Shown: positions 1 to 64,000 of the stretch, piece by piece
Numbering within the stretch: the stretch's first letter is position 1
Layout: each line of letters starts with the position of its first letter
Origin: Bryum argenteum
Lineage: Eukaryota; Streptophyta; Bryopsida; Bryales; Bryaceae
Direction of reading: 5' to 3'
Assembly (NCBI GenBank): GCA_037043015.1
Contig: CM073321.1
Coordinates: 4,794,001-4,858,000, forward strand
Length of the DNA: 64,000 nucleotides
Notes under the pieces: generated by a model
The model's database searches: none
What the model was told of the DNA's origin: nothing
The model's input: only the letters and a program-made list of their open reading frames with translations
Translations under genes and position numbers: made by a program

Positions 1-615
1 GCCGCGCCACGGTTTCCCATCTGGGCGTAACAACTGGTCTTCGGCGTGGGTGAAGTTGGTTAAGTTGTCATTGTCGTCCGGGAGAATGTCGAGCTGCCCC
101 CATAGACCATTCGACCTCTTTGTTTCAAACTTTGCATCCTTTCTTGCAAAGACCTTAATGTGGAAGTTCTGAGTCTACATAATCCAATTGGGCGATTAGA
201 AAACCTCATTACAATCTATGAAATTGAACGGAGAAAACATATAGAAATATAAACACTGTAGATTTACCGTTCTGTCAGAGTACAGCGCGGACGTCAAACG
301 AAGTGGGTTATAACCCCACCAGTCACGAACAATCTTGAACTGGTAACTATACGTGCACTCGTCCAACTCTTGTTCAATGGCCCTATCCCTTGGGTGCATG
401 AGAAGTATAACCCCATCATCCGTTAGATTCACATCTGCAAATGCGAATACGTTATCGAAATAATCGTCATCTCGCATGTTCCACATGGATACAACGTGTG
501 GTTCCATGAGAGGCACGGTGAGGTTTTCATGTGCATCAGCGATGATTAGGTCAATGCCGGGATGTTTGGGCTTCATAGTCATGTTTTGAACGGGCTTATC
601 ACGACCTTTCCCAAC
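1..615 (-). CDS. MULE copy A gene 2, exons 7-8: methyltransferase-like domain
   Basis: Exon 7 is 268-615 and exon 8 runs from 168 off the left edge. Splice sites are visible (acceptor ending CAG before 615, donor GTAAATC after 268, acceptor ending CAG before 168). Exon 7 encodes GIDLIIADAHENL, then LTDDGVILLMHP, then VRDWWGYN. This order resembles the core of MT-A70 or N6-adenine methyltransferases: a hydrophobic strand ending in DPPW, a later strand after a helix, then a WGY-type segment. The catalytic DPPW is replaced by DAHE, so methyl transfer cannot be assumed. Copy B has the same exons at 47701-48250 with DAPE at this position. No stop codon is seen here. The fold assignment is by eye; another Rossmann-type domain is possible. 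Confidence 0.6.
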
Positions 616-712
616 CTGGACGATAAAGTGTAACAATTATTAGTGTCATAAAATCACCACGATTAGAGAGGGACATTGGAAACAATATGAAATTATGAGG
701 ATATCGGTTTAC

Positions 713-1370
713 CTTACGAATATGCTGCATAATGTGTACCGCTTGAGGTTCCATACAGGAATTAGTGTCGCTCAAGTTCAAAACCTCACCCATGTCTCCG
801 TGCTCCAGGAATATGGGCAAAGTAGATACGTTAGCAGAGATTTTATCAGACAAGTCAGGACGCACCATATCGCGACCGCAAACAAGCCGATTAAAGTTCG
901 TGGCGTAGGATGGCAAGCCAACAATGTCACCAAGACGTTCACTTGCTTGAGTAAGGGAAGGACCAAATTCAGCTTGTGATGAAGGACCATCTTGAGCAAT
1001 AGGTGCGTTCATGGCTGTAGGTCGTGATCTTGCTGGCACTTGAGCACGTTTCTTCCCAACTTTAGGAGCACGGTTAGGCATATCGTCGACGAAGTCTCCT
1101 GCATCATTGTCGTCTTCAATGTCGATACGAGCTTGAGGTGCAGAGACGATGCCCATTGACACTGCAAGATCTTGCTCCTCCATAGGAACGAACGGGGCCG
1201 AGCAGTCCAAAAACCAAGCTCCAGTCTTGAAGGCTCCTGTTGAGAACCTCTCGTACTGGCAAGGAGTGAATGCGTTATGTTTGGAGTCTTTATCACGAGC
1301 ATCCTTCAGAAACTCGGGAAGAGAAGACAAACAAAGAGCACCTTTGGCCATCAACTCCCGGGTGAAGTAC
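713..1370 (-). CDS. MULE copy A gene 2, exon 6: linker exon
   Basis: Open exon of about 219 codons between an acceptor ending CAG (just above 1370) and a donor GTAAACC (below 713). It starts RYFTRELMAKGAL, which matches RYLKHELVAKRAL in copy B. It then holds a basic, proline-rich stretch (PKVGKKRAQVPARSRP) and ends LPIFLEHGDMGEVL, matching LPMYLEKGNIEDL of copy B, before HIMQHIRK at the donor. I recognise no known domain; low complexity suggests a flexible linker between the N-terminal part and the methyltransferase-like part. Phase is kept with exons 5 and 7. Unlike copy B, there is no in-frame stop. Confidence 0.7.
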
Positions 1371-1447
1371 CTGAAAAACAAAATGGTTTAGAAAACCAAT
1401 TATTATTAAGTAGCAAATAAATAAGTAAGCGGTTTAGGATTTAATAC

Positions 1448-2180
1448 CTATAGACCAAGAGTTTGATGATCAACATGTCATTCTCGAACTTCTTCAAATC
1501 GGTTCCTTTGACAAACTTTGGGCCTCCAGTTGGTGCGAGATATGCAAGGTACGCGTGATCCCAAAGGCTCACCCTCCAATGCTCTACGTAAGCGGATGGA
1601 GGAAGAACGTCGACTTTCCACACAATAGGCATAGCGTGATTTTCGAGGATCTTATTAAACTCTTGTAGGAGTTCGAACTCCAACTGCAAAAACGATTGTG
1701 AATCGCATAAATGAGAATTAAATCATGATATAGTTTCAAAGATTCCAATAACCCAAAGCACAAGTTTAATTAGACAGCATGCATACTTGTGCCCAAAAAG
1801 AAGCCTTCTGAATCCAGGCATCAAAGGTTTTCTCTTTCATTGGACGATCCAAGGGAAAACACACAAGCTGTCTTTCATTATCCGTGCTATTCCACCAAGA
1901 CAGCCACTTCGCCTTGAATTTCGGCTCAACATGAGATGTAGCAATTTTTTGAAGTCGCTCAATTGACAACTCGGCTACTGGAAAAGTCGAGTAGTGTGTA
2001 GTAATCTGAATAAGACATAACTCACGTCAATTATCAACTTACAGATGATCAAATAGAAAGCAATGATATATTATACGTACCTCGTCGAAGAACTTTGGGC
2101 CATTATGTGGATTAGCCACCGCGATAAATTTCTCAAAATTTCGACCCTTTAAGATCTTGATGGTCTTTTGTTGCGCATGA
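1448..2180 (-). CDS. MULE copy A gene 2, exons 3 (3' part), 4 and 5
   Basis: Exon 3b is 2081-2180, exon 4 is 1787-2005 and exon 5 is 1448-1683, each with GT..AG borders. Exon 3b continues exon 3a (12672-12774) across the Ty3/gypsy insertion, in frame once one copy of the 5-bp duplication CATGA is discounted; it encodes FEKFIAVAN, matched by FDKLVAVAN in copy B. Exon 4 encodes WLSWWNSTDNERQLVCF and exon 5 YVEHWRVSLWDHAYLAYLAPTGGPKFVKG; copy B has YVEKWRLLLWKKAFGNYLAP and KFIKG at the same place. The tryptophan-rich region has no domain I can name. All three exons are open. They show that gene 2 was an intact reading frame when the retrotransposon landed. Confidence 0.75.
2176..2180. repeat. 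Target-site duplication CATGA, left of Ty3/gypsy element
   Basis: CATGA directly precedes the 5' LTR and is repeated at 12672-12676 directly after the 3' LTR. A 5-bp duplication is normal for Ty3/gypsy integration. Confidence 0.9.
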
Positions 2181-3527
2181 TGTGAGCCATACAAATGGCT
2201 CACGTATTAGTTATTGAATATCTAGATACAAAATACATTTGATTATAGTAGTTTGTGTGGTTCCTATAGGCTAAATGCATTAAATTTGAATTTATAGAAA
2301 TAGGCTCGGAAGTTATTAGAATAATTAAGAAAAGCATTGAGTATGGCAATTTAGTGACAATTACATGATTTTATGTTAGGGAGGATAACTAAATTGTTAG
2401 AATTGAAGAATATTTGATGTGAGGTAGTATTAGAGTTAGAGGTAGATAGGCAATTTAGAAAGTAGAAAGGTAAGAAGGAAGGTGAGGGAGTAGGATTTCT
2501 CCCTCATGCTTCCCCTCTCCCCTTTATCTTTTCTTTCTTTCTCATTTCTTTTTACTTGTCTCTCTCTTTTTTGCTAGGGTTTGCTAGTTTTGTCTCTCTT
2601 GTTTTTTGGTGTATGTGTGTGGTTTTTGAGATGCTTCTAGGTTGTGGCTATGGAGAATGGAGTTAGTGATCTAAGATGGAGAAAACACACAAGTAGAATG
2701 TGTGGAGTTGTTGGATGTGGGTGTGAGTGTGGGTAGGTTAGGGTAGAAGATAGGAGAGTGGATTTCCCGACCAAGATCTGGATCTGCCAACTTTGGGAAG
2801 GTGTAGCGTTTGGCTGGAGACGAGTTTGAGCAAGCCCTTTGGAGGAAAGGAGCGTCTTGAAGCCAGCTTTCCAACGAGCCCAAGCGCGCGGTCATAGGAG
2901 CAGCGACGGGGAGCTATGGCGGATCTCCCAAGAGGACTTCACCGGCTTGCGGCGGACGGCGAGAAGAGGCGGCGCTGACTTGAAGAACGATTTCTATCGG
3001 TAGGAGACAAATCTGAGCAAGCCCTTTGGAGGAGAGGAGCGCCTTGAAGCCAGCTTTCCAAAGAGCCTAGGCTTCCTCTTTTTGGATCATGGACGGAGGA
3101 ATGGTGATCGATTAAGTGAAAGCATGTCTACTGTGGAGGGCAAATTGAAGGCCTGACTTTGAGGCCGCATAACTCAAGTTTTAGGAAGAACCACGAGACG
3201 TGCTTCCGGATTCAAGTACATCATCAAGCTAGCTCTCTGTAGACTCCTAGCTTGCCTCAAGAAGAGCAAGGACGAGGGAGATACGGCCATTTTAGTGGCC
3301 AAGGGTCCAGCTGAGGTTGGACCCCAATTGTACTTCTTCTTCCCCATTGGTTTTCTTGTGATGTTTATTGCATCTCGTGTCTTGATGATCGTGTGATGGT
3401 GGATGCATGGTGTTTGTGAATGCTTGTTAGGATTTAGAGTCCATTGCTTGGAAGGGCTAGGTAGGTGTCTCCACTCTCAACCGGCCCAACTCTAGGGCTT
3501 TTCTTCCTACGGGTTGAATTGCTCATA
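2181..3527 (+). repeat. 5' LTR of Ty3/gypsy element
   Basis: 1,347 bp, starting TGTGAGCC and ending GCTCATA; nearly identical to 11326-12671. Short inverted ends (TGTGAGC and GCTCATA) are visible. A roughly 60-bp segment is duplicated inside the LTR at about 2822-2881 and 3007-3068 (core GAGCAAGCCCTTTGGAGG). A minus-strand reading frame at 2671-2895 recurs in the 3' LTR and is not counted as a gene. Confidence 0.95.
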
Positions 3528-3530
3528 GAA

Positions 3531-3550
3531 TTTGGTGCGTCTGCCGGAGA
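3531..3550 (+). promoter_or_regulatory. Primer-binding site, probably tRNA-Asp-like
   Basis: TTGGTGCGTCTGCCGGAGAG lies 3 bp after the 5' LTR. It partly matches the complement of a plant tRNA-Asp 3' end (TGGCGCC, then GCCGG). The match is imperfect, so the tRNA identity is tentative; the position is right. Confidence 0.55.
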
Positions 3551-5431
3551 GAGTGTCATCTAACTTGTGGTAAAAGTGTGTGAAATGATTTTTGAAGGAT
3601 ATGCGTACGGACTAGGAGCTTGAAGGCATGTGTGTTGTTTGTGTTTGTGTTTTCATTTCAATTGCAATTGTGGGTTGGGCGTTTTGTGGGTGTTGTTGCC
3701 CTTGTGAGTAGCTCATGACATTGCGTCGTGAGTGTGAAGGGGATTGTGCCACCATTGTTGGGTGGGGCTCCTTTGGTGTTGTATTAGTCGCTTTTCTTTA
3801 TTAGGTCGTGGTTTCGTATGACGGTGAGGTGAGTCGGATTAGTGGCGGCGGGACCGTTTATGTCGTTTGAAATTGGGGAATTGGGAGTGATGCCCCAAGG
3901 ATCCCAAGAGCTTGTGGATGCGGGTTGAACATACAGGTTGCCCTTCACCCGTCCATCACATCTTTTGTGGTCCATCCATGTGTGAACTTAAGAAAAAATA
4001 AATAAATTAAATTCTTGTAAACCTTTCGTTGATCCGTAACCCAAGTGGGAAATTGGAAGTGGATTGGGTGATGCCGCCCATTCAAGAACCGCACGAGGTT
4101 CTTGATTGGATTCCACTTCAAGACGTGCACCAATACGGTAAGGGTAGAGAGGATTATTTGTTCATGAATGTAGTAAGGCATTAGGTTGTAATTTTCACTC
4201 ACCAAGAAGGAAGGTATGGACTTCGCATGCTGAAATTTTCTTAGAGAGGTGTGTTTTGGCCTTTTAAGTCATCCAAACACTTTAATGGACTCAAAAATTT
4301 CACCCTTTGCTTGATGTACTTCCCTTGCTTGCTTTTATTCTTAAATTTATGTAAGAGTGGTGTTTGAAAGGAACTTAGAGGCAATTATAAGGTGGAGGTA
4401 GGTAGGAGGGTCTTGAGTTTGAAGTGGTGTGTGTGGCTTGTACAAAGGTTGATCATTTCAAAAGAGTTGTGTGATTATGAGGAAACAAGGGTAGAAGGCA
4501 AGGCTACCGTTTCTTTCTCTATTTTGTAAAACATATGATCATGACTTGATTGGATTAAGATAACTTTGATACAAAATTGCACACTTACTTCAAGTAGTGT
4601 GTGTGAGGATGTACAAAGGTTGATCATTTCAAAAGAGTTGTGTGATTATGAGGAAACAAGGGTAGAAGGCAAGGCTACCGTTTCCTTCTCTTTTTGCAAA
4701 ACATATGATCATGACTTAATTGGATTAAGATAACTTTGATACAAAATTGCACACTTTACTCGAACTCCCCGGACCTTAACTCCTATCTTTGCTACCTCCT
4801 TTCCATTGCAAGTCTAGGAGTCACAATTTTGCATTGATAGTTATTTTTGAGTTTGGAGTGACTTTCTATTAATAGTAATCTGGACCTTGTACCCAAGTAC
4901 TCTTATATGATTCAAGTGAGCCAGTGGTGATTGATGATTCTAAACCTTGTTAGGAAACCATTAGAATGAGTAGAATTTGTTACACCTTTGAATGAAGCGG
5001 GTAGTAGAGGGATGAGGTCTTGAAACCTTGACTTGGCTATATATAGTATCTTTGGACCTCCAACCGTTTATTGCATCTCTTCAACATTTGGGTGAAATAG
5101 TCCTTGTAGTCATCTTCTTGCTTCGGTGTTGAAAGGATTGGCACGGTTACAAAAACTTAGTTTAGGTCAAACCTTGAGTAGCTCAAATAGCATCCTAAGG
5201 ATGACATGGATAGTACGCCCGAATGGTGACTACCCGATCACAATACCGTCAACGCCAATCTTTACACGATAGAGAAGAAGAGACTAATAGGGAAAAACAT
5301 TCAAGCCCAATAGTTGGAAGAAATAGAGAACCATCACCAATTTCTTTGTTGCTCCCGAACCCTTAGAAGAGGAATCCACTTACACTATAGAGCCAAACGA
5401 TAGGATAGAGGAAGACAATCTACTCCCACCC
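3551..5431 (+). other. Long untranslated leader of the Ty3/gypsy element with an internal tandem duplication
   Basis: No gene is seen in these 1.9 kb. A roughly 170-bp segment is duplicated in tandem at about 4421-4590 and 4591-4760; both copies share GTACAAAGGTTGATCATTTC, the phrase AAGGCAAGGCTACCG and the end GATACAAAATTGCACACTT. Long leaders are usual in plant Tat/Athila elements. Confidence 0.75.
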
Positions 5432-6620
5432 ATGGATCCTAACAATGCGGCGGATGCCATGATGGCACCCCGTGGATTGCCCATTGTAATGCCCCAAAAC
5501 TTAGCACCACGATCCATGCCCATACACTTGCCTAAGTTTTCAGGAATGTCTCATGAGGATCCTTCACACCACATTGAGCGGTATATAGAGGCTCTTATTA
5601 CAAACGTGATTCCCGAAGAGACTTATAGATTAGTTTGGTTCTCCACTACATTGGAAGGCCAAGCTTACAATTGGTACCGATCACATGCTCCCGAAACCTT
5701 TGCTAATTGGCAAGCTCTTCAAACCGCATTCTTGAGACAATTTAGACCGGAGACTGGACAACAAAGTGCCTTAGTAGCTCTCACGGGAATGCGCCAAGGT
5801 CTATCCGAAGAAATTTCGGAATACATTCGCCGTTTCAATACGGTTATAACCCGCTTTGTTGGTAACCACCTCACTGATGAGACCATCCGGTATTACTTCA
5901 TTCAAGGCTTCAACAAGCATGCCACTATGAGAGAGATTTTAAATGCACAGCCACGAACTTTGGAGGATGCGCAAGAAGCTGCCCGACATGTAGAGAGGAT
6001 TGAGAAGGAAAATGATAGGATGTGGAATCGAACCATAGCACCGGTGCTGTGCGGCATTTATTCCTGCACACTATACACCTCCAAATCCTTTGGTCCCTTC
6101 TAGAGAGCAATCTTATACTCCTCCTAACAATCAACCGGTGCCTTTGGACTCTAGGTTGCCGGTTCCTCAACTTGAATGGCATGCACAAGCGGAGTCCTCA
6201 CGATTTGAGAAGATGGAGAGAAGGCTTGATGATGCAATTAAGAGCTTTGGGAACCAAATTGCTATGGCTATCAATGCAAAATCAGCACATGCGCCTCCTC
6301 CCTTGAATGAGACCGGAAATTTCCCCACCAACATGTGGTGTAGGAATTGCAACCAATATGGCCATAGTGAGACACATTGCCAATTGCCAAAGACTCAAGG
6401 TCCGTATGTGGCCCCTTTACCACGTCCAAATCCACCTATGCAACCAAGAGGTGCTCAACCTCAATCCAAAGGTATTCCATGCCCCACTTGTCATCGAATG
6501 CATCCTCTTGGCCCTGGACTTTGTTGGGTAGAATCGGTGTAACATGTGGAAATTGCGGAGGCAATCATCCTACCGAGAGGTGTAGAAGACCTCAAGGGAA
6601 CCCAACTTGGGCAATTCAAC
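5432..6620 (+). pseudogene. gag: Gag polyprotein region, frameshifted
   Basis: The frame opens with ATG at 5432 (MDPNNAADAMM). It shows the retrotransposon Gag core: LPKFSGMSHEDPSHHIERY near residues 33-51, then FANWQALQTAFLRQF and YIRRFNTVITRF. A frameshift near 6040 moves the reading to the next frame, which carries a CCHC knuckle (CRNCNQYGHSETHC) and a second cysteine cluster (CPTCHRMH). Another shift gives CGNCGGNHPTERC. Gag packages the RNA in virus-like particles in the cytoplasm. At least two frameshifts rule out a full protein. Confidence 0.85.
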
Positions 6621-6937
6621 CACTCCAAACCCTCCTCCGAATTTGTTCTACAACCGCCCACCTCAAGGGACTCAACAAGGTTATTACATTAATCCCCAAC
6701 CGCCCAATGGTACCCTCAAGGTGTTGGACAACCACTTGGACCTCCTATGGTGGCACACTCATCATATTCTCACCAACCACCAAATGTTCACCAAGTGCCA
6801 ACCCCAAGTCCTAATCATGTGCATTCTCAATACTACATGGGAATTCATCCTACTCCTCCTCATATGCAACAGGGTGTCACTCATCAACCTCCAATTGTCT
6901 CACAAGATGCTCGAAACAAAGTGGTTTTCATCCCAAT

Positions 6938-8717
6938 GTGGCTCAATTTCCTACATCTTCCACTCAATCGGAATTCAAGGCAAATCAAAGTGCCAATATG
7001 ATCATTCATGAGTTGGAGACACAAGTCATGACCTCATCTAGTCACCATCCACCCATGCAACATGTGGCGGTGATGACAAGGCAACAACGCTTGAACAATC
7101 CTTCCTTGGATGCCATCTCAAAAGAAACTAGTAGCATAGGAGATGCCCATGATGTTCAAGCTATGAAGAATTTTGTTGGTGAGCAAACTAGAGAGATTCT
7201 TCATGAGCCACCTTTAGATAATCCCTCCATGGAAGATGCACCACTATATGAGCTACTTAGTGATGAGGAAGATGATCTTCACCAATTTGTGGAACCCATG
7301 GAGGTTTGCAATCAAGATAAGAGGGTGTCAAAAAATCGGCATAGCCGTGTATTCAATCCGGCGGAGGAGTATGATTTGTGGTCTGATCTTTGCACTCTCC
7401 AAGCTAATATCTCTATAGCCCAACTCATCCAAGTTGCTCCTTCTTTGAGGAAGGAATTTAAGGAGGGAGCCACAATGCCTCGTAGACCTAAACAAAAGAT
7501 CATGACTACAAGGGTGTATGTAGAGAGCTTGATTGATGATGGAGCTTTTGAAATTGATGTCTCTATTCTAGACAAGGTGATTCCACATGCCTTGATAGAT
7601 GGAGGAAGCGGTATTAATATCATGCCACTTTCTACAATGGAGAGTTTGGGTTTGGTACTAACCGCCCTTCACCATACATAGTGAAGGTGGCGGATGAGCG
7701 CTCCATCAAGCCACTTGGCCAAATTGTGAATTGTCAAATGGAAGCCGGAGGAGAAATCTACACATTGACTTTTCATGTTTTGAGGTTGACAGAAAAAGAG
7801 GGGGCATATCCTCTTATTTTAGGCCGAGATTGGTTGAGGAGGGCCAATGCTTCCGATTGTTGGTCTATTACTACATCCACCTTGACATTTGGTCCATTTG
7901 ATAACCGGGCCTTGGTGACGTTGGGTACTCCAACCACTTCACAAAGTTCAATCATAGGAGAGAAACCAAAACCAAAGATGAGCTTAGTGTTGAGAAGGTG
8001 GGCTATGTACATCCTATGTTGACTGTGGGAAAGAATCCTATTGATTTAGGGCCAATTAAGAATTTAGGTTCCGGCCTTTATGATTGGGAAGATGATGGTG
8101 AATTCACTACGTGGCTTCAAGAGCATCTTGAGGATCATGAGACACCTCGAGTCCAAGCGGTGCATGTCATTTCCACGAGGAGAGAGGAAGTACATGAGGT
8201 TGACATTGATTCCGGTTTGGTGACCTTGCTTGATGAAGTGGAGTATGAAGCGGTGTATAATCTTGAGATTGATGGCACCCAACCTCATGGTATGGAAGGA
8301 TTGTTGAATGAAGAGGACATTCTACCACCACCACTTCATTTCCGCAAAACCTCCACAAGTTTGGAGGTTGGAAGTGACCTCCCTATATACCCCGCGGTTC
8401 CTAGTGATTGGTATCATGGCCCTACAAATCCAATTACGGTTCCTATTAATGATTGCCAAGATGTGGATGTTTCATTGGAGAATGAGGAGGCACGATTCAT
8501 CAAAATGGGAGCTCAATTGACAAAGGAGGAGATAGCAAAGTACAAAGAGCTAGTGCTAGAATTTCGAGACATTTTTGCTTGGTCTTATAAGGATCTCAAG
8601 GGCATTCCACCGGAGATAGTGCAATACACTATACCTCTTCTTCCTGGTACTCAACCGGTTCGACAAAAGGAGAGGCGTATGAATCCCCGTCTTCAACTTA
8701 TTGTGAAGGCGAGTTAG
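6938..8717 (+). pseudogene. pol: Aspartic protease and start of the pol region, broken
   Basis: The frame 6938-7681 ends with ALIDGGSGINIMP, the active-site loop of retroviral-type aspartic proteases (D-G/S-G). The frame then changes at 7681 (continuing to LILGRDWLRRANA, the second conserved protease strand) and again at about 7998, where the segment to 8717 ends in the connection to reverse transcriptase (ELVLEFRDIFAWSYKDLKG). A stop at 8716 precedes KLLEAGFI. The protease would cut the Gag-Pol polyprotein; in this copy it cannot be made from one frame. Confidence 0.8.
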
Positions 8718-8766
8718 AAGCTTTTGGAAGCGGGGTTCATTAAACCTCGTAGAGATCACAGATTGG

Positions 8767-9218
8767 GTGTCTCCTATGGTCCTTGTCAAGAAGAAGAACG
8801 GCAAATTGAGAGTGTGCATTGACTATCGGCGCTTGAACAAGGCCACTCAAAAGGACCATTTTCCTCTCCCATTTGTCAATCAAATTCTAGATGAGGTAGC
8901 CGGTCATGAACTCTACACATTTTTGGATGGATACTCGGGTTACAATCAAGTGTCCATACATCCAAATGATTACCACAAGACCGCATTCACCACACCTTGG
9001 GAACCTTCATCTATGTAGTCATGCCTTTTGGATTGTGCAATGCTCCATCGACCTTCCAAAGAGCCATGACCGCCATCTTCTTTGATTTGCTTCACAAATC
9101 CATGTCGGTATTCATTGATGATTTTAGCACCCAAACCAAAGCAATAGACCATTATGTCATGTTGCGTGAATGTTTTTTGAGGTGTCGGCGCAACCAACTA
9201 GCATTAAATCCAAATTAA
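8767..9218 (+). pseudogene. pol: Reverse transcriptase domain, frameshifted
   Basis: Conserved reverse transcriptase blocks are visible: LRVCIDYRRLNKAT, FLDGYSGYNQV, then, after a frameshift near 8995, VMPFGLCNAPSTFQRAM and the active-site box FIDDF. In the family the last box is usually YxDD or FxDD, so the catalytic pair of aspartates is present. The frameshift between blocks and a stop at 9218 inactivate the copy. Confidence 0.9.
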
Positions 9219-9303
9219 AAGTATATATGGGGGTACAAAAAGGAGTGTTGCTTGGCTATGTAGTATCTAAGGTCGGAAAGAGCCGGATCCCGAGAAGATA
9301 GAA

Positions 9304-10170
9304 GTGATTCTCAATCTTGAGCCTCCAACTACGGTTAAGGGAATTCAACGAGCATTAGGACATTTTGGGTGGTATAGAGACATCATGCCAAATTATGCCA
9401 CGGCGGCCATTCCACTCACCAATCTCACACGCAAGGATGTTAAGTTTGTGTGGACCCCCGAATGTCAAGCAGGTTTTGATGCTCTCAAATCCAAGTTGAC
9501 ATCCTTTCCTTGCCTTGTTGCACCGGATTGGGAGAAGCCCTTCCATGTATATTGTGATGCATCGGCAGTGGCCGTTGGAGCTACATTGTGTCAAGCTCAT
9601 GGTCCTGAGAACAAAGACCGTCCTATTGCTTTTGCTAGTAGGCAATTGACACTTTCAGAGCGGAATTATTCCACCACGGATAGGGAATGTTTAGCCATGG
9701 TTTTTAGTGCAAAGAAGTTCCGCCATTACCTACTCATGAATCCGGTGGTGTTTTTTGTTGATCATTTGGCATTGAGATACATGGTCAACAAACCGGATCT
9801 TAGTGGTCGGGTGGCTCGATGGGTGTTGCTCTTAGAAGAGCTTGACTATACGGTGGAGTACAAACCCGGGCGTCTACACTTACAAGCGGATCATCTATCT
9901 AGAATTTCGGAATCCTTGGGTATGGTGGAGATTGATGATGAGCTTCCCGATGCTAATTTGTTTTCCATCACCGTAGTTCCTACATGGGATACTTACATAT
10001 CCGAATTCTTAAGTACTCAAAAGCTTCCTGAGCACTTGGACGCTAATGAGAGGAGGAAGATTAGAGTGAATAGCCGGCACTATGCAATCATTGCAAATCG
10101 GTTGTACCGACGAGGCATTGATGGTGTTCTTCGTCGATGTGTGAGTGAGCCCGAAGCTAAAAATCATTGA
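9304..10170 (+). pseudogene. pol: RNase H and integrase zinc-binding region
   Basis: Open frame of 288 codons. It starts with the reverse transcriptase thumb and linker (RALGHFGWYRDIMPNYA). It continues with RNase H: VYCDASAVAVGATLCQ (first D), RPIAFASRQLTLSERNY, TDRECLAMVFSAKKFRHYL, FFVDHLALRYM and KPGRLHLQADHLSR. The RNase H would remove the RNA template strand. The frame closes at 10168 inside the region leading to the integrase HHCC finger, where another shift has occurred. Confidence 0.88.
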
Positions 10171-10330
10171 AGCATGTCATGATGGCGCTTGTGGAGGACA
10201 TTTTTCCGGGCGTCTTCATCGCACTTAAAATTCTTCGCGCGGTTACTTTTGGCCCACCTTATTTGCGGATGCACATCGACATGCCACTCGATGTGATGCT
10301 TGCCAAAGATATGCAAGGAATGATCTTCAT

Positions 10331-10939
10331 ATGGCACTTCCACTTCATCCTTCCTTACCCTTGCTCCCATTTGAGAAATGGGGCATAGATTATATTGGAC
10401 CGGTTCACCCTACATCACCACGTCAAAATGCATACATTCTATTGGCGGTGGATTACTTGACCAAATGGGTAGAAGCCAAGGCGATTAAGACCGCACATGA
10501 CAAGAAGACCACGGCAAGGTTTATGTTTGAGCATATTTTCACTCGCTTTGGAGTCCCCAAAATATTGATTAGTGACCGTGGTACTCATTTCCTCAATGAC
10601 CTTATTGAGGAACTCACTAACGCTTATGGCATTGATCATAGGAAGACCACACCCTATCACCCACAAACCAATGGCTTAGCGGAAAGAGTCAACCAAACCA
10701 TTGTAAGGATTCTAAGAAAGACCGTACATGACAACAAGAGAGATTGGGATGCTAAACTTAATGCGGCGTTGTGGGCATATCGTACTACCTTCAAGGTCAC
10801 CACAAAGCAAACTCCATTTGTTTTGGTCTATGGCGTGGAAGCCATCTTGCCAATTGAGATTGAAATTCCTTCATTACGCATTGCCCTCAATGATAGATGG
10901 CGGTTTCAAAATCAATTCATGATAGGGTGCTCATGCTAG
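10331..10939 (+). pseudogene. pol: Integrase catalytic core
   Basis: This 202-codon segment carries the integrase core: WGIDYIGPV (first D), ISDRGTHF (second D) and NGLAERVNQT (catalytic E), followed by LNAALWAYRTT and TPFVLVYG. D, D and E are all present with normal spacing. The C-terminal part continues in other frames to about 11330 and shows no chromodomain. The frame is cut off at 10939. Confidence 0.9.
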
Positions 10940-11325
10940 AAGGCTTAAATGAAACAAGGAGATTTAGTGCTCAACACATAGAGACGGCTCAACGGAGGAA
11001 GAAGGCCGCATTTGACAAGTCCCACAAGAAACGAACTTTGATCCCGGGACCATGGTGATGTTACAAGATGGTAAGAAGCTTGAATTTCCAAGCAAGCTTG
11101 ATGCAATTTGGTTGGGACCATATTGGATTATGGAGGTGTATCCAAACAACACAGTTCAATTGGCAACATTGGATGGGACATATTTTCCCACACGTACGAA
11201 TGGCGAGAGATGCAAGACATACCATGTGTGACCGTGCTTGCCCAATGGGGAGCCTCTTGCCTACGAGGCTTCAAGACTCTAGGCCCGTTGCATTCTCACG
11301 AATGCCCCGCAGATGATGGCGACAC

Positions 11326-12671
11326 TGTGAGCCATACAAATGGCTCACGTATTAGTTATTGAATATCTAGATACAAAATACATTTGATTATAGTAGTTTG
11401 TGTGGTTCCTATAGGCTAAATGCATTAAATTTGAATTTATAGAAATAGGCTCGGAAGTTATTAGAATAATTAAGAAAAGCATTGAGTATGGCAATTTAGT
11501 GACAATTACATGATTTTATGTTAGGGAGGATAACTAAATTGTTAGAATTGAAGAATATTTGATGTGAGGTAGTATTAGAGTTAGAGGTAGATAGGCAATT
11601 TAGAAAGTAGAAAGGTAAGAAGGAAGGTGAGGGAGTAGGATTTCTCCCTCATGCTTCCCCTCTCCCCTTTATCTTTTCTTTCTTTCTCATTTCTTTTTAC
11701 TTGTCTCTCTTTTTTTGCTAGGGTTTGCTAGTTTTGTCTCTCTTGTTTTTTGGTGTATGTGTGTGGTTTTGAGATGCTTCTAGGTTGTGGCTATGGAGAA
11801 TGGAGTTAGTGATCTAAGATGGAGAAAACACACAAGTAGAATGTGTGGAGTTGTTGGATGTGGGTGTGAGTGTGGGTAGGTTAGGGTAGAAGATAGGAGA
11901 GTGGATTTCCCGACCAAGATCTGGATCTGCCAACTTTGGGAAGGTGTAGCGTTTGGCTGGAGACGAGTTTGAGCAAGCCCTTTGGAGGAAAGGAGCGTCT
12001 TGAAGCCAGCTTTCCAACGAGCCCAAGCGCGCGGTCATAGGAGCAGCGACGGGGAGCTATGGCGGATCTCCCAAGAGGACTTCACCGGCTTGCGGCGGAC
12101 GGCGAGAAGAGGCGGCGCTGACTTGAAGAACGATTTCTATCGGTAGGAGACAAATCTGAGCAAGCCCTTTGGAGGAGAGGAGCGCCTTGAAGCCAGCTTT
12201 CCAAAGAGCCTAGGCTTCCTCTTTTTGGATCATGGACGGAGGAATGGTGATCGATTAAGTGAAAGCATGTCTACTGTGGAGGGCAAATTGAAGGCCTGAC
12301 TTTGAGGCCGCATAACTCAAGTTTTAGGAAGAACCACGAGACGTGCTTCCGGATTCAAGTACATCATCAAGCTAGCTCTCTGTAGACTCCTAGCTTGCCT
12401 CAAGAAGAGCAAGGACGAGGGAGATACGGCCATTTTAGTGGCCAAGGGTCCAGCTGAGGTTGGACCCCAATTGTACTTCTTCTTCCCCCATTGGTTTTCT
12501 TGTGATGTTTATTGCATCTCGTGTCTTGATGATCGTGTGATGGTGGATGCATGGTGTTTGTGAATGCTTGTTAGGATTTAGAGTCCATTGCTTGGAAGGG
12601 CTAGGTAGGTGTCTCCACTCTCAACCGGCCCAACTCTAGGGCTTTTCTTCCTACGGGTTGAATTGCTCATA
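11326..12671 (+). repeat. 3' LTR of Ty3/gypsy element
   Basis: 1,346 bp, same ends as the 5' LTR and about 99.7% identical by eye; differences are a T-run near 11707, one T near 11769 and one C in the run at 12487. The sequence just before it (GATGATGGCGACAC) is a poor polypurine tract. Confidence 0.95.
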
Positions 12672-12676
12672 CATGA
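12672..12676. repeat. Target-site duplication CATGA, right of Ty3/gypsy element
   Basis: Second copy of the 5-bp duplication found at 2176-2180; gene 2 exon sequence resumes at this point. Confidence 0.9.
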
Positions 12677-13062
12677 TGCATAGCCAACCACACCCCGTGT
12701 CCGGTTTGCTTCTCTTTAGCAGTAGTCTCCTTGTAAATCTTTGCAGCAAGGTCTTGAGCCCAAGAAATGTCTCTCTGTAAATTACGAAAAGCACACAATA
12801 TAAATTACATAACATTTGACCATAGTCATAAGCAGTATTTGGTTGAACAATACTTAAAATTATTACCTTGAACAAGAATGCTACGAATACGTCAACTGTC
12901 AGAGAATACCAAGTGGTACGCCTTGATTTCTCTTTTTGGCAAAAATCATATGCCTCTTCCGAAATCAAGTCCCTGAAAGCCTCAAGTTTCATGGATCCAA
13001 ACGTCTGAATACGTTGTAACTTTGCTGGAAGACTACTCTTCACGAAGTCGTTCTCGGTCGAC
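12672..13062 (-). CDS. MULE copy A gene 2, exons 2 and 3 (5' part)
   Basis: Exon 2 is 12867-13062 (acceptor ending TTGTAG, donor GTAATAAT) and exon 3a is 12672-12774 (acceptor ending TTTACAG), cut at its end by the retrotransposon. Exon 2 encodes LQRIQTFGSMKLEAFRDLIS and TWYSLTVDVFVAFLF; copy B has LQRMRTFGKLKLEDFKDLIS and TWYPVTIDVFIKFLY. Exon 3a encodes TAKEKQTGHGVWLAMHH; copy B has PKDKQRGPGVWSAMDN. The conserved intron positions show both copies descend from one intron-containing gene rather than from a retrocopy. No named domain is recognised. Confidence 0.78.
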
Positions 13063-13155
13063 CTACAATTCCAACCGTATGCATAAGGATGTGAGAAGAT
13101 AAGCTTAATGAAAAAAACAATGTAAAGCGAACTTCATAGAAGACAACCAACTTAC

Positions 13156-14046
13156 CAATTGACGTCAGCCATGGCGTTGACGAGAACGCCATTCCTTCCT
13201 CGTGCATCAAGCACGATGCAGTCAACCCGAATGTGCCAAGAAGGATTGTCTTGGTGAAACTCTGCAATCTCTCGCATCCATGCAGCCAAACGGTGATTCC
13301 CTTCATAGACAAAAAACATTTTGCCTTGAAATTGATGGAGGTGGACGTCACGAGACAGGTCGTCCTCGAATCGTCTATTTTCATTCACCCAATGTTCATC
13401 CCAAGTGCTGACAATCTCCGGGGAAACAAGAAGATCCCGACTATCCTCGTCATATAACGAGACGTACATGACGCGATCACCCTCCCTATAACCTCGGGCA
13501 AACTCGTTTTGAAGCCTCTGGACGTCGGCTTCAAGAACAGGTCTAACCTTGGGGTAAGATTTAAGGCGACATAAAGGAATTCGAAACCGAGACTTATCTT
13601 CCGGTTTGTTGAGAATCCCCTTGATGGCCCTAACCGAGTCCGTCGTGGTGCAAACTCGAATCTCGTGCTCGCTAAACTTCATATCCTTGTCCTTGAGATG
13701 TGAAGGATGTTTAGCAGCCTGATCATCGTCGGAATCCTCGGAAAGAGATGACGGGCCCTCCAATTGTTGTTGTCTCTCCGATGAAGCAAGCCCAAGGGCG
13801 TGCGCTGCGTGAACAATAGCAAGATGCTCACTAGGAAGCACTGCTTGGGCACCTTGATCCAGAGCAAGCGTTGGCCCGTCCCCATTCTGAATGTCACTCA
13901 TGTGGTCCCGGGGGGGGGGGGATGTCTTGTCCAGTGGATGGTGACGGGACGTTCGGGAAACTCCGATCCTCTTCCTTGGGTTGGGTCTCCGGAATACTCA
14001 AGGGAATATGCTCGCCATTCTCATTATTGTCATGGACATCCCTTGG
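13156..14046 (-). CDS. MULE copy A gene 2, exon 1: ParB/sulfiredoxin-like domain
   Basis: Exon between an acceptor ending ATCCAG (above 14046) and a donor GTAAGTTG (below 13156). The reading frame from ATG 13901 shows an N-terminal ParB-like pattern: IPLCRLKSYPKVRPV (first strand), DVQRLQNEFARGYREGD (helix), VMYVSLYDED (strand), then FFVYEGNHRLAAWMREI, the signature loop G-N-H-R of the ParB/sulfiredoxin superfamily. In that superfamily the loop binds nucleotide (CTP in ParB). The frame upstream of 13901 is also open (PLSIPETQPKEEDRSFP) but is offset by one base at a run of 12 C on this strand (13910-13921), so a one-base slip there probably breaks or restores the frame. It lies 154 bp after gene 1 in the same direction. 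Confidence 0.72.
13910..13921. repeat. Poly-G/poly-C run in the gene 2 exon
   Basis: Twelve G on the plus strand (twelve C in the coding direction). The open frames on the two sides of the run differ by one base, so its length decides whether exon 1 of gene 2 is continuous. Confidence 0.8.
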
Positions 14047-14200
14047 CTGGATAAATGAAAGGGTAAAACAATAAATTAAACTTATGTAGACAAGAAATGT
14101 CAATAGATATATATCACCAAGAATATGATGATTAGTAAATTATCATCCATGGATAATAAAAAATATAAATAATTGTAATTGAGACAAATCATGAATCAAG

Positions 14201-14527
14201 TTAAGTAAAAGATGTTAAACTAGGAGACTGTCTAGGGGCTAAACGGGCCGCATCTCGAGCTTTTAGTCTCTTCTCATGTGTATGACGTCGCCATTCTCTC
14301 ATATATAGAGCATGAGCCTCCTTGTCAACAATATTGGATGATGTAACATTGGAACGGGGAAAAGAATCCCCATTAGAGGCCTCAGCCATAGCAATGATCG
14401 TCCCAGGTAAACCTAAGACAACGGTACGGTCTCCAATCCATTTTTGAAAATGTTGACTTAATCCATCAAAATCACTACTATCAGTGTCAGACTCAATGAC
14501 ATGATCTATGCTATCCGCAGAGAACTC
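14201..14527 (-). CDS. MULE copy A gene 1, last exon
   Basis: Acceptor ending GTGTAG above 14527, then EFSADSIDHVIESDTDSSDFDG (acidic), then AHALYMREWRRHTHEKRLKARDAARLAPRQSPSLTSFT and stop at 14201. Copy B exon 44264-44581 is homologous, enters in the same phase and ends with the same basic motif (APRRSPRLAAKL). I know no function for this protein; the acidic then strongly basic layout suggests a chromatin- or DNA-binding accessory protein. It is separated from gene 2 exon 1 by 154 bp. Confidence 0.68.
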   Translation of the reverse strand, partial: EFSADSIDHVIESDTDSSDFDGLSQHFQKWIGDRTVVLGLPGTIIAMAEASNGDSFPRSNVTSSNIVDKEAHALYMREWRRHTHEKRLKARDAARLAPRQSPSLTSFT

Positions 14528-46730: not shown

Positions 46731-46805
46731 TATTTCCTATATACAATTAATAATCTTTGTACAACGTATTCAATTTTCAAAATCTAATTTGTTTACTTTT
46801 TGTAG

Positions 46806-47604: not shown

Positions 47605-47700
47605 GTTCTATTTCGTACAGTTATCATTTATAATCTCCCTACTTACATTTTGTACTTTTAAATCTATTATACACTATCTAATTATTGACTTGTATCTCAG

Positions 47701-49473: not shown

Positions 49474-50200
49474 ACAAAGATTAATTGCGTTATCGTTCGA
49501 ACGGTACGCCATGGCGAGGCTCACAAGAAAATGACCCCTCCTTCATTCAATACTTCTTGGATTGTCACACAGACTATAGAGGTATAGTCTTTGACTGGAG
49601 CGCAAGTACATGTAATGTATCCGTAACGGCTACTTTAGAATTAGTTTATACATTTCGCATTTCTAATCTAAGTTTCTGTATCTTTAGGTGCATGTGTAAT
49701 TGCTTGCGTGCGCTCAAACCGACACCTCATCCCTATGGAACCTGACGAAGAAATCTTTGATGGTGCAATAGCGGATTACAAGAATGGTCCTTTCGGTGAT
49801 GAAGAAAGTGGAGAATCGGCCCACTTGTAGATTATCACTCTGATGAATCGCAAGTGAAGAAGCCACAAAAGTTCACTGGTGCGTACTGATATCGTCTATC
49901 TTTCTTTCTCAATTTTACATTCTGCTCTTACAAATATATTGCACTGACTATATTTGTACTTTTAAGATTGCAGGTCTGAAAGAGCGATTGACTCGCAACC
50001 CTCATCTCTACAACAGCCCTCCATCAACATTCACCCTACCTTCATATGCCGAGCGTGTTGCACAAGAGTTCGTTCGAGCTCCATCTCCCATTCTGTCTGA
50101 CAGTACACGTCCACGTTTCAGCAATAGTGTACTTAAGTTTATAGACTTTGGGGCTGATGCGTGTGAACATCACTTTAATGGTGCTACACCTTCAGCGTAG
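49474..50200 (+). pseudogene. MULE copy B gene 2, 3' exons
   Basis: Exon 49474-49581 (acceptor TTTGCAG; KINCVIVRTVRHGEAHKKM), an exon about 49690-49878 with PDEEIFDGAIADYKNGPFGDEE and then a frameshift to VDYHSDESQVKKPQKF, and a last exon 49975-50200 (LTRNPHLYNSPPSTFTLP, stop at 50200). The matching part of copy A lies left of the window, so this is the only view of the C-terminus. No named domain. Confidence 0.6.
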
Positions 50201-50275
50201 TATGTGATTTGTTTTCTGATAGGTACTGGACATGGTAGAGCCATACATTCGTAGTTTACCATGATCTATTACTTA

Positions 50276-50579: not shown

Positions 50580-51149
50580 TATACTATCTATATGTGTTTT
50601 TCAATATTTACGGTTTATTATATTTTTACTTATCATGATTATCGTTTATAGATTAACCTACACTAAGTGCTTCAAGTATTACTCTACGTATATTAATAAA
50701 ATGTAATCAAAGCCATGCTTGCCTCTAATATAGACGTCAGCCCTAATTTTGATGTAACTCGTTCAACTCTAATTTCAATGCATCGGTGTACCTATTTGCG
50801 CGATCCCTAAGCTGGAAGCGAAATGTGTAAAAAACTTCAAATCTTAATCATGGGGAAAATTGGCTTCGAATTTTATAAGGTGAGAAGCGATGACGTCACC
50901 CCTAATTTATTGACGACAATGTAATTTTTTTTTATTAATTATTATTTGAGTTATGGAATAGAGCCAACACTACTTTCGCGCGGAAATAGGATCTAACTTC
51001 ACGGATTTAGAGTACGCATTTTGATCAAACTATGCTGAAATATATTTCATCACCTTTAATTCAATGGTCATAGGGTCACTATCTGAAGTACAATGAGTGG
51101 TAATAGGGTCTTAATCTTTCATGAAAAATAAATAAATTTGCCAATTACC
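50580..51149. other. AT-rich stretch without gene
   Basis: No open frame or repeat of note; leads to the heptamer array, as 37722-38100 does in copy A. Confidence 0.55.
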
Positions 51150-51205
51150 GCTCACCGCTCACCGCTCTCCGCTCACCGCTCTCCGCTCACCGCTCTCCGC
51201 TCACA
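51150..51205. repeat. Array of eight GCTCACC-type heptamers at the right end of copy B
   Basis: GCTCACC, GCTCACC, GCTCTCC, GCTCACC, GCTCTCC, GCTCACC, GCTCTCC, GCTCACA. Same number of units and same strand as 38101-38156. Confidence 0.8.
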
Positions 51206-51348
51206 CTCGTGCATTCCCCACAACAATCATCCTTCAACATACATATTGTGTCCACAACCTAATTAGCTTAATTTCACCTAATTACCCCAAGGTTGCATTT
51301 GCTTGTTAAGAATTCACTGATAAAAGCAACAACACGCTCTCACGCTTT

Positions 51349-60000: not shown

Positions 60001-60557
60001 CATGAGTCCACACGCTGTCAGGTATTGGCCAGAAAACCACATTTGTCCCAGAACAACTTTGTTAATCAGTACAAACATTGAATCGGTTTAAACATGAGTT
60101 TCTGACACACGCATGTTATTTGTAACGTTTTCAAACGCAGTTTCACGTCACCTGAAACGCAATTTTATGCAAGAAACGCAATCTGACGTTATAGAAAACG
60201 CAAAGCCATGCAACTTGATATGTGCGCGTCATAAGAAACACGATGAGACATCATAAGAAACGCGTAGTAATGAAAGTTGACATGCGTGAGTCATAAATAA
60301 CATATCCGAGTCCCGAGCAAAGTCAAATTGAGTCATTTCGACTGTTGGAAATGGAAAACCAACTACTACGTAAATCTAAACAAATCCGAGTACAAGAATA
60401 TGTGGATCGTGTAGGAAAATGAAGTACGGGATTGGCGGCACAAGGAAGGCATGTCTATAGAATAGAGGTATGAGAAGAATGGAAAGTGCCCTGGTGGATG
60501 GTACGTCGAGAGAAATATTTAAGCATATCACAGAATCAAAAGTTAAAGCACGCTTAC
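60001..60557. other. Stretch left of MULE copy C, no gene
   Basis: Repeated GTCATAAGAAACGC-like words at 60110-60300, similar in style to 58955-59235. By comparison with copy A, 60552-60557 holds the donor (GTAAGCG on minus) of the copy C transposase intron. Confidence 0.5.
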
Positions 60558-60616
60558 AAGATCCATGAAGCCTCCCCATTGCCTATAACGGAAATGCCAC
60601 CACGCCAGCCAGGACT

Positions 60617-60621
60617 CCATG
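60617..60621. repeat. Target-site duplication CCATG, left of solo LTR
   Basis: Repeated at 62143-62147; the copy C transposase exon is continuous when one copy and the LTR are ignored. Confidence 0.88.
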
Positions 60622-62142
60622 TGTCACATCCCTTTCCAAAGGATGCCCGAACACCGTGGTGAGCCGAGAGGACCCCGGGAGTGACGCCCCGGGCTTGGCA
60701 AGAGACAAGGTGAAGTGACCAAGGGGAGTCCCGAGCAAACAGCACGCAATGGCGTCGTGCTCGGGACGAACTTGGTCGCGTGTCTTACATGGTTGGAAAC
60801 CTTGTTTGAGCACGCATCCATGGGTCCAAAGAATGCGCGATTTGGAGTTGTGAGTCATGAGATATGACTCTCCAAAGTTGGAGCGCGTTCCGGGACACTC
60901 CGGGACTCGGGAGTGTTGCCTTTCGGGACTCAAAATGTCGTCCCTCATGGATGGCGGCATGTTGCATGTCTTTGGAAAGCTCTGGACAAGAGCTTTCCAA
61001 AATGCTAAGGCTCGTGAGGAGCAAAGCAATGCTTTGGGAGATATGGCTCTCCAAAGCATCGGGACTTCGGGACTCCGGGACTGCTGCCTCCCGGGACTCC
61101 CGAATGTTCAGAGGAGCATAGCTCCCACATGGAAGCTTTCATTGGAACAAGTGAGGACTCCATCGACATCTACTCGAAGAGTAGATGTCGAAAATGGGCT
61201 CGCACGTCTCATTTGGATAACAGAGCTACAAGTTAGCCCGAGAAGAAGATACGGCCCGTTTTTGAGACTAAGGCAAAAACGGGTGGTCTTCCAAAACAAA
61301 AGTGTGTCACGGAAGGCCCCTCAACACAAGAGGGGGGGGGCCTACCGAAGACTCCAGAGAGTACTATGAGGAGGGGTGGTCTCCCTCCTCACTTGCACAT
61401 GGTGCCTTGAGGAGCCGGGGTGGCTCCAAGGGGTGAGGCTTGGGATGGGGCCTCACTCCCGCACCTTGTGGAAAATGGAGAGTGCTTTGGAGCATCTCTA
61501 AACATGGGGTTGGGAAGTGTCCCTCTCCAAGTTAGTCCCCGTGATAAGTAGTGCCGGTTCCCGGGAGTGACCGGGAATGGCTCAAGAAGGTGAGGCATGG
61601 AAATGAAGCCTCACTTCCACATCTTGGGCATTGTGGGATGCTCTTGAGCATCCCGCAACATTGGGTTGGAAAGAGTCCCGCTCCAAACTAGTCCCCGGGA
61701 AAACTAGTGCCGGATTCCGGGAGGATTTCCGGCAAAGTCCCGAATGGGGTGAGAAACAAGAGTGGAAGGGGACTAGTGGGAAGTTGGACAATGGATAAGG
61801 GCGGTTAGCTCCGGGGGTGATTAGTAGCACCCTTGGGAGCTTGGACATGTGTGGAAGGCCGCCCCGTGCCACCAAGTGGCACGCCCATGTGTTGGTGGGA
61901 GTTCCGGGTTGGCATACCCATGTGTTGGTGGGAGTTCGGGGTAATGAGTACCGGATAATGAGTTATGGAGTCAAGGTGGGTTGGACACCTTGACTTAGAA
62001 TGGTGCTAACATTGTGTGTGTGGGGCACATGCAAGTGTTAGCAAAGTCGTGGCCGGTTGCTACCAACTGAGTGAGCCGTGATTCCGCTACCAAGTAAGGC
62101 TCACTAAGAAAAAGAAGAGTTGGAGTAATTAGGGTCGCGACA
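60622..62142. mobile_element. Solo LTR, 1.5 kb
   Basis: Starts TGTCACATCCC and ends GGTCGCGACA (inverted ends TGTC/GACA), flanked by the 5-bp duplication CCATG. No internal retrotransposon genes, so it is a solo LTR left by recombination. It contains internal direct repeats of about 150 bp (about 61425-61580 and 61592-61730, both with GTGAGGC, CCTCACT, GTTGG and AGTCCC blocks) and GGGACTCGGG-like words at 60890-61100. The long frames inside it are not genes. Confidence 0.88.
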
Positions 62143-63249
62143 CCATGGCTGGCAAATTTGAATCCGTAACAGCTTCACTTGACACCCACTACGACCGAAT
62201 TGCAAGGTAGCGTGTCTCGGCCTCGTCCATATTGATTGCATCCTTATATTGTGTACAGATTCGCTTATGCTCTTCGCGGAGCACCGGGGTTACGTATAAG
62301 TTTGTTACTCTGTGCATGCATTTTGTCCAGTGGAGTAGACACGATCTCTCCTTCTCTTTCATGGGCACAGTCTTGTCTCCCGTCTCTCAAACAGCGTTCC
62401 AATTGGCTTGAGCGCTGTCAGCCATGAAACCTTTGAAATTGACGTTGACGACACCATGACGCCCCATAACTTCGTTAAGCTTCCTCCAAAGGTATGATTG
62501 TGCGTCCTTAGTCTCAGATTGCATGTAGCAAATAGCAATTGTCATCACCTTGGCGTAGGTTGAGTCATAAACGTGACATGCAAACGTAGTGTAATGTTTG
62601 ATGCGTTTAACGTGAACAAACATGATCCATGAGTCCTTCAGATTTCCGGATTGCATGCGTCGAACGAGGTCGACGCCTGATCCAGGTCCAATCTCGGACA
62701 TCTTGAAAACAAAAACTTTGATTGTGTCCTTTCTTTGGCCCGGAAATCTATTCTCTTGGATAAATGGCCAGCAAGTTGTCCCCCTGAGTTTGCATACTCC
62801 ATCAATCACACCTAGCTTCACCATTCGTTTAAACTGAGAGATGTTGTTGCGGATGGTCTCGGACCTTATGAACTTATGAATTTGGACTTTGAGGGTTCGG
62901 GGACATGAGAGAGAGGTGCAGCGGCATCTGACCTAGAGCTTAAGACTGTTGCACCAAGTGTTGCAATCTGGGATTGTGCGTGATGGATCACTCCTGTGCG
63001 CTCACCAATGATGCAGTACATAGTGGGCTTTAGGACCCAAACACCACCTTCTAAGTTTTCACTACATATGACAGCATCAGTGTAAAGAAGCGAACCCGAA
63101 TCATCATAAACCTCTTCCTCCAGAAAGATAGAGTCTAGTTTAAAATCAAACTTCAAGGCGAGCATTCTAGCATTGACAACAATTCTTCCGTCAGATTGAG
63201 GTGATACCCTCAGGGGGGCTCGACCACCCTCCACACGAATTGTTGCCAT

Positions 63250-63605
63250 AGTAGGCAATTATAAGAAATGTATTGATTTCGAAAACAATTAGACAGTACT
63301 AAGTTGAAAAAAATAGTCGAAGATGACCGACGACAAGAAGTGGGTGTCTCAGCCTGGAGTCGTCATCAAATTCACGATCAATAATTGATTTAGTTGAACT
63401 GAACATAAAATGGTGGCTATCAGTAATTATTTCGTACAGTGCTTTTTTAGTTTTGAATTGCAGACTTGGTGTAGTAAAAAGAGAGTAGTAAATGCAAAAG
63501 ACAGCGCCGCCCATAGTTAGAACTCGACGTAGTCGTATTTATATTCCTCGTAACGACATAACGTTGATCCAAATCCGATGAGTTGGTGCACAGTCATACT
63601 CTGAG
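63250..63605. promoter_or_regulatory. Divergent intergenic region, copy C
   Basis: Separates the copy C transposase from gene 1, as in copies A and B. The 18-bp block shared by A and B was not found here. Confidence 0.5.
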
Positions 63606-63839
63606 ATGCCGGAAGCTGTAGAAGTAGAACGAAGAAAGCGACGTAGAAAGCGAGTTCCAGGAGGGAGGCTATACTTTTCGAACAAAAGTAGTAGGAGACA
63701 AGTGACGCTTAAAGGAAATCACAGAAGTGCAATGGGAGAAACCGCAAAGACTCTTTTGCCAATTCTTGAGGACGCTGCAGGAGATCCTCAACGAGCACGA
63801 CTAATCGAAGAACCATTTGACGGAGTACGCAAAAATTGA
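63606..63839 (+). CDS. MULE copy C gene 1, first exon
   Basis: MPEAVEVERRKRRRKRVPGG (strongly basic), KSSRRQVTLKGNHRSAMGET, AKTLLPILEDAAGDPQRARL, ends in TGA at 63839. Matches the start of copy A gene 1 (QQKRKKKRGGLKFSG, VRELVGNAERPEP) and has the same divergent position next to the transposase. It may be the whole first exon or be cut by a stop; the rest of gene 1 and gene 2 would lie right of the window. Confidence 0.55.
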   Translation: MPEAVEVERRKRRRKRVPGGRLYFSNKSSRRQVTLKGNHRSAMGETAKTLLPILEDAAGDPQRARLIEEPFDGVRKN

Positions 63840-64000
63840 AGGAGTCTGTTTTGATATTGGATGCTTGACTAATTTTTTTCTTTGCTGACGACTGAATTTT
63901 ATTCTTCGACTGTAATGATGTATGAGAAATTGATGCACCTTAAACACATTTTATTTTGGAGAGGATGTTTTTAAGTGATTGTTTTGGCATTCTAATTCTT
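63840..64000. other. Right window edge, downstream of gene 1 copy C exon
   Basis: No gene or repeat recognised in the last 160 bp. Confidence 0.5.

Follow-up and report, generated by a model that had tools for sequence, protein, structure and literature searches.

A MULE-like transposon lineage in the moss Bryum argenteum with a ParB-like, methyltransferase-derived accessory gene

When a transposase is repeatedly accompanied by the same two genes, do those genes belong to a transposon or to the host beside it? In Bryum argenteum the question is raised by a window of 64,000 nucleotides (C1:4794001–4858000 of a 258.8-Mb assembly in 25 contigs; contig CM073321.1 of GCA_037043015.1), in which a first-pass annotation described three cassettes, here A, B and C, each with a transposase and a divergent gene 1, followed in A and B by a gene 2. 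With a probability of about 0.7, the cassettes are divergent members of one DNA transposon lineage resembling Mutator-like elements (MULEs). On this reading each element is about 14–17.5 kb long, has short imperfect terminal repeats, makes 9-bp target duplications, and carries a transposase and a divergent module of gene 1 and gene 2, the latter encoding a ParB-like fold and a beta-class N4/N6 methyltransferase-derived domain.

Element borders and genomic linkage

Six A-type copies (on C1, C2, C4, C5, C6, and C8), picked by the ParB exon of gene 2 and not by the transposase, were fetched with their flanks. In alignment they have both borders in common: the left end begins GGACGTT and the right end finishes with TGCATTCCCCG or a close variant, and 7-bp repeats adjoin on the inner side; in copy a6 the last element base differs. 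Exact 9-bp target duplications were found in all six (TGAAGCCGT, AGCCAAAAG, CGGGTGCAT, TACTGTATA, TTCACTACT, and TGCCCCTAC), and the elements measure about 14–17.5 kb. Copy b1, a B-type element of about 15.05 kb, has the same end design, with imperfect inverted repeats (83% over 60 columns, from about 12 bp inside the termini) and a target duplication that matches at 8 of 9 bp. The shared ends with duplications of 8–10 bp that the first-pass annotation proposed to look for are therefore present, exact at 9 bp in every A-type copy and nearly so in the B-type copy. In copy a3, an A-type element separates the transposase portion of a B-type element from its gene 2 portion, an arrangement that fits nested insertion within the same lineage.

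The ParB exon of gene 2 has at least 141 matches genome-wide and the transposase at least 134; both lists are samples, and the counts lower bounds, because each was drawn from the top of over 1,100 first-look candidates. The description of three copies holds for the window only. Among the matches listed, and with three weak short gene 2 rows left out, 49 of 138 gene 2 rows have a transposase within 20 kb, which is upstream and divergent in 46; random placement gave the divergent layout a mean of 1.14 times and a maximum of 5 in 1,000 rounds. When the b1-type transposase was the query, a listed methyltransferase exon lay in the divergent layout for 22 of the best 48 of 147 rows, a count without a random control. 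The right-end 22-mer occurs 168 times with at most one mismatch (reversed control, 0), and at 59 of 100 listed places a gene 2 exon from the list lies upstream in the same orientation, compared with 1 and 0 when the strand is flipped and with a random mean of 0.58 (maximum 4 in 500 rounds). The frequent divergent co-location that had been anticipated is thus observed, and chance neighbourhood is rejected by both comparisons (46 against 1.14 and 59 against 0.58).

In all three cassettes the transposase lies on one strand and genes 1 and 2 on the other, as the first-pass annotation had it for gene 1 in A, B and C and for gene 2 in A and B. All three contain a transposase, a gene 1 start and gene 2, whole or partial, since the gene 2 of C was located past the window edge. 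The intergenic region of the divergent pair contains an 18-mer, GGCGACCGTCATTGTCAG, that is identical in A (20029..20046, minus strand) and B (40954..40971, plus strand; chance 0.02); the few other 9-mers that the two have in common there are scattered. Across the genome the 18-mer is present at 25 places, of which two lie in the window (reversed control, 0), and 22 of the 25 have a listed gene 2 downstream or a listed transposase upstream. Copies a3–a6, four of the six fetched A-type copies, have two versions about 240 bp apart, and b1 has a version with three mismatches. The spacer between genes 1 and 2 is filled with copy-specific tandem repeats.

That the cassettes arose by segmental duplication of host genes located by accident beside a transposase has a negligible chance of being correct. 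Three cassettes in both orientations within about 70 kb would suit it, but the dispersed copies carry 9-bp target duplications, gene 2 has at least 141 genome matches, the main gene 2 exons of A and B share only about 50% identity, and no inverted repeat pair is listed in the window. A recent duplication is excluded by the last point together with the A/B matches in coding exons and the 18-mer, and the target duplications rule out the duplication and host-gene explanation as a whole. The annotation had named one ordinary segmental duplication, or a gene 2 that is mostly a single-copy host gene, as outcomes contrary to its proposal; the 9-bp duplications at dispersed copies and the number of gene 2 matches speak against both. 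Its assignment of genes 1 and 2 to the transposon as cargo is supported by those duplications, by the linkage and by the high repetition of gene 2.

Domains of gene 2 and class of the transposase

Gene 2 is read as a ParB/sulfiredoxin-fold domain joined through a long linker to a domain derived from a beta-class N4/N6 DNA methyltransferase, with other residues, themselves conserved, in place of the catalytic motifs. A ParB/sulfiredoxin-type fold is predicted for the main exon, and as a modelled structure the ParB-like fold is well supported. GxxR is the nucleotide-binding motif of the ParB/sulfiredoxin N-domain; the corresponding G233, N234, H235, and R236 are at least 90% conserved in 50 ParB-exon rows, and the exon is under constraint. 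Among 5.8 billion proteins, gene 2 found a single match, a hypothetical protein of Ceratodon purpureus (E value 7e-128), and the ParB exon alone found 73 relatives. Pfam scans at E < 0.01 gave no family for the ParB exons or for P0001 and only N6_N4_Mtase for the C-terminal pieces. Methyltransferase matches to the C-terminal piece in NCBIfam were weak (E 0.012 and 0.028), as were tblastn matches of P0001 in phages (best E 0.06 among 20 listed of 239 records). The half containing motif I is homologous to phage-type N4/N6 methyltransferases (PHROG E 3.6e-7; hhalign probability 96%), and at the level of sequence homology the methyltransferase ancestry of the C-terminus is established.

Active enzymes have (D/N/S)PP(Y/F/W) as motif IV. 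Five of six phage proteins have DPPY or SPPY and the sixth has DLPY; in gene 2 this position, assigned by order and pattern, reads (D/N)(A/V)(P/H)E in 11 of 11 sequences, and motif I is FDWS(A/V)(S/N)TGA instead of the DPFxGSG(S/T)T type. Loss of the catalytic motifs is well supported by this pattern. Because the domains of gene 2 are arranged as in ParB-methylase fusions of bacteria and phages, it was likely captured from such a source.

A total of 152 transposase relatives were found, and no Pfam domain was assigned to any of the best 120 that were listed. D524, D590, and C619xxH622 are invariant in 19 of 19 aligned relatives, with upstream cysteines and histidines conserved; the CxxH spacing is a mark of the MULE DDE transposase core, of whose three acidic residues the first two are assigned here. 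MULE transposases often have a SWIM or other zinc finger; a SWIM-like CxC...CxH pattern is present in the A and b1 transposases, with a Pfam SWIM match at E 2.5, and a plasmid search for a transposase relative gave no match at E up to 10. According to the part of the source available, MULEs have target site duplications of 8–11 bp, and the terminal inverted repeats of VANDALs are absent or short and degenerate (PMC6446971). The duplications of the six A-type copies and b1 lie in this range, and the repeats of b1 (83% over 60 columns) are of the VANDAL type. The 9-bp duplications, together with inverted repeats that are short and imperfect, make MULE-like the most fitting provisional name. Three features suit the name given by the first-pass annotation, namely the duplications, the SWIM-like cysteines and the D...D...CxxH motifs; Pfam does not clearly support it. 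As a separate observation, the transposase relative P0031 and the ParB-exon relative P0164 have the same longest contig value, 318,782, which hints at linkage in another genome.

Several results weigh against this interpretation of the element. Pfam gave no convincing transposase match; one of the 19 relatives matches Transposase_mut weakly (E 0.034), and no other transposase-core model was matched. None of the 50 ParB-exon rows matches a ParB model in Pfam at E up to 1, no Foldseek match reaches E 0.001 or better, and the ratio of nonsynonymous to synonymous substitution rates (dN/dS) spans 0.20 to 2.98 in 19 closer pairs, with few changes and with stops in some copies. For the methyltransferase part, motif IV is placed by position and pattern and the profile match is restricted to the motif I half; hhalign against the AcaML1 ParB-methylase proteins singly gives 16% and 1%, and the structure model of P0001 from six rows is unusable, with a mean predicted local distance difference test score (pLDDT) of 37. 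Three of the 25 18-mers, including that of B in the window, have no listed partner, and the promoter of C has no 18-mer.

Possible roles of gene 2 and comparison with known systems

In VANDALs, the targets of VANC are arrays of a short motif in non-coding DNA, as described in the available part of PMC5735166; the 18-mer and spacer repeats of the moss element resemble the evolution of such targets, a lead that rests on analogy. Gene 2 may likewise bind the non-coding DNA of its own element and protect or regulate the element against host silencing, a proposal made tentatively and at somewhat less than even odds. Candidates for its binding sites would be the repeats of the spacer and, in the promoter shared by the divergent genes, the CCGTCATTGTCAG motif; the product itself probably methylates no DNA, and its action would be sequence-specific self-regulation or anti-silencing, as for VANC in VANDALs. 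A more elaborate form of the proposal is improbable. In it, gene 2 would be a nucleotide-switched DNA clamp of the ParB type, loaded onto CCGTCATTGTCAG as a parS-like site in the divergent promoter; from there it would extend over the 15-kb element and keep silencing machinery away, and the inactive methyltransferase domain would read DNA or chromatin.

Other roles can be weighed on the same features. That gene 2 acts as a functional N4/N6 DNA methyltransferase and modifies the DNA of its own transposon would be in keeping with the homology of the gene 2 C-terminus, with the conservation of that domain between families and in Ceratodon, and with the proposal, in the part of the Ectocarpus report available, that the same domain pair in the Sola1 accessory protein binds and modifies its own transposon (PMC12477816). 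This is improbable here, as DPPY is replaced in 11 of 11 sequences, with E where an aromatic residue is expected, and motif I departs from the DPFxGSG(S/T)T type. A structural co-factor of transposition, active in end recognition, synapsis or target choice and not in anti-silencing, is rather unlikely; gene 2 does travel with the transposase under constraint, and the 7-bp tandem repeats at the termini could serve as binding sites, but of the non-coding motifs found, the best conserved is in the divergent promoter and not at the element ends.

The number of accessory genes is itself in question, and there is an appreciable chance, although under one half, that gene 1 represents the 5' exons of gene 2, so that each element has one accessory gene. 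Both lie on one strand, the spacer between them, which is long, variable and full of repeats, could be intronic, and a single accessory gene of this kind is named for Ectocarpus in the accessible part of PMC12477816. A conserved ALYMREWRR-like open stretch before the ParB exon in a3 and a5, weaker in b1, may be a further exon of either gene.

The first-pass annotation knew of no multi-gene MULE with a ParB- or methyltransferase-like protein, yet this kind of gene is not unique to the moss; ParB-methyltransferase accessory genes are reported in algal transposons, namely Sola1-1_Ec32 of Ectocarpus and green and red algal transposons cited with it (PMC12477816, available part). As described there, Sola1-1_Ec32 is a Sola1 element of a brown alga, whereas the present element is from a plant and has 9-bp target duplications and a MULE-like transposase. 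The Ectocarpus enzyme is predicted to make N4-methylcytosine or N6-methyladenine, while the catalytic motifs of moss gene 2 are lost, the two being compared by description. A separate gene 1 may also be present in the moss element, unlike in Sola1-1_Ec32 as far as that text describes it. The VANA/VANB/VANC element VANDAL21 of Arabidopsis, judged from the available parts of PMC5735166 and PMC6446971, is similar in being a multi-gene MULE-type element whose terminal repeats are lacking or short and degenerate, and it too has an accessory protein, tandem-repeat regions, and a short motif in its non-coding DNA; the moss accessory protein differs in its ParB and methyltransferase-derived domains, and VANC is likened to it by description. 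The fungal TET/JBP dioxygenase transposons, in the portion available (PMC12730594), are likewise DNA transposons with an accessory gene related to DNA modification, but that gene encodes an oxygenase, not a protein of methyltransferase ancestry, and the transposases belong to superfamilies other than MULE.

Outside transposons, the phage ParB-methylase fusions AcaML1 gp24 and gp25 have an N-terminal ParB-like part (recognized by eye) and a methylase with motif IV before motif I, and a Mycobacterium phage Vincenzo DNA methylase has an N-terminal ParB-like part by structure match only. The AcaML1 proteins keep SPPY or DPPY, whereas moss gene 2 is interrupted by introns, contains a long insert, and has lost its catalytic motifs. 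The records listed in the literature searches, in which few subscription papers were covered, include no report of a ParB-methyltransferase gene in moss or plant transposons. The novelty lies in the plant host, the different transposase type, the disappearance of the catalytic motifs, a candidate motif for binding, and the presence of three or more old lineages. ParB–methyltransferase accessory proteins are thereby extended from algae to a plant, in an abundant MULE-like element. The methyltransferase part was apparently kept despite the loss of its catalytic motifs, which suggests DNA binding, not methylation, as the retained role, and the protein may help the element to evade or control host silencing. 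With a candidate binding motif and defined ends, the contest between transposon and silencing in mosses becomes directly testable.

Layout of the cassettes and nested insertions

Element A (minus strand) was placed at 1..38170 by alignment to the six dispersed copies, with its transposase-side terminus, GGACGTTACTG, at 38170 and its gene 2-side end beyond the window start. The 5' part of its transposase (20303..20724, plus strand) is separated from the remainder (34332..37721, plus strand), which has a DDE-like core with FMADSAQANWNAV and CxxH, recognized by motif conservation in relatives, and the SWIM-like CxC...CxH near 37485–37610. Gene 1 of A (19250..19725, minus strand, borders approximate) has a basic start, KRKKKRGGLKFS, an acidic later part, and stops. 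Gene 2, on the same strand, consists of the ParB/sulfiredoxin-fold exon (13152..13997), exon 2 and the first part of exon 3 (12680..13061), the remaining exons including that of motif IV, DLIIADAHENL (266..2182), and a next exon that runs off the window (1..178).

Cassette B is decayed, with its transposase cut at 39857 (5' part 39857..40713, minus strand), a stop in the ParB exon, and more stops elsewhere. On the plus strand follow a decayed gene 1 (41252..41450, borders approximate), a spacer with 444-bp tandem repeats (43117..44128), the ParB exon of gene 2 (44790..45542, in-frame stop near 45291), further exons including motif IV, DLIFADAPENL (45628..48060), C-terminal exons with the motif I region FDWSAST (49490..50204), and the right terminus (51149..51219), where 7-bp repeats precede CTCGTGCATTCCCC. 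In C, the transposase (60522..63249, minus strand) contains stops and is 43–62% identical to A at the amino acid level in matched segments; the gene 1 start, RRKRRRKRVPGGRLYFS, is at 63606..63836 on the plus strand, and a fragment of the ParB exon with 40–43% identity to those of A and B lies outside the window at window coordinates 70141–70386.

Protein-level comparison of the window with itself matched transposase segments of A (20234–20755 and 34507–36093, plus strand), B (40782–39857, minus strand), and C (62875–60522, minus strand). It also aligned the gene 2 exons of A, on the minus strand, in the same order with those of B, on the plus strand, at 46–51% amino acid identity in the main pairs: 13155–13706 with 44991–45542, 12864–13061 with 45628–45825, 1444–1656 with 46512–46724, and 265–627 with 47689–48051. 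A weaker segment (710–1378 with 46798–47607) has 27–37% identity. Of the conserved introns claimed for A and B, the first has its donor at the identical codon position in both; the acceptor that follows in B is not clear. The transposase start codons lie at about 20303, 40713, and 63249, where they had been placed; the gene 1 start held for C at 63606, but in A it is nearer 19725 than 19755 and in B the gene is decayed. Overall, the starts match the proposed ones to within tens of bases.

Element A is split by two nested insertions. A long terminal repeat (LTR) retrotransposon of 10.5 kb (2183–12671), with near-identical LTRs, gag-pol-like frames named by eye at 5327–10939, and CATGATG flanking both sides, lies inside and cuts exon 3 of gene 2. 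A CACTA element of 13.6 kb (20725–34331), with CACTATAAGAAA ends and TAC target repeats, lies inside the transposase; it has a DUF4216 match at 21747–22637 on the minus strand and a 12-bp minisatellite at 29138–29444. Gene 2 of B holds a stretch of about 1 kb (48260–49271) that resembles a terminal-repeat retrotransposon in miniature (TRIM) and is bounded by 186-bp direct repeats that are 96% identical.

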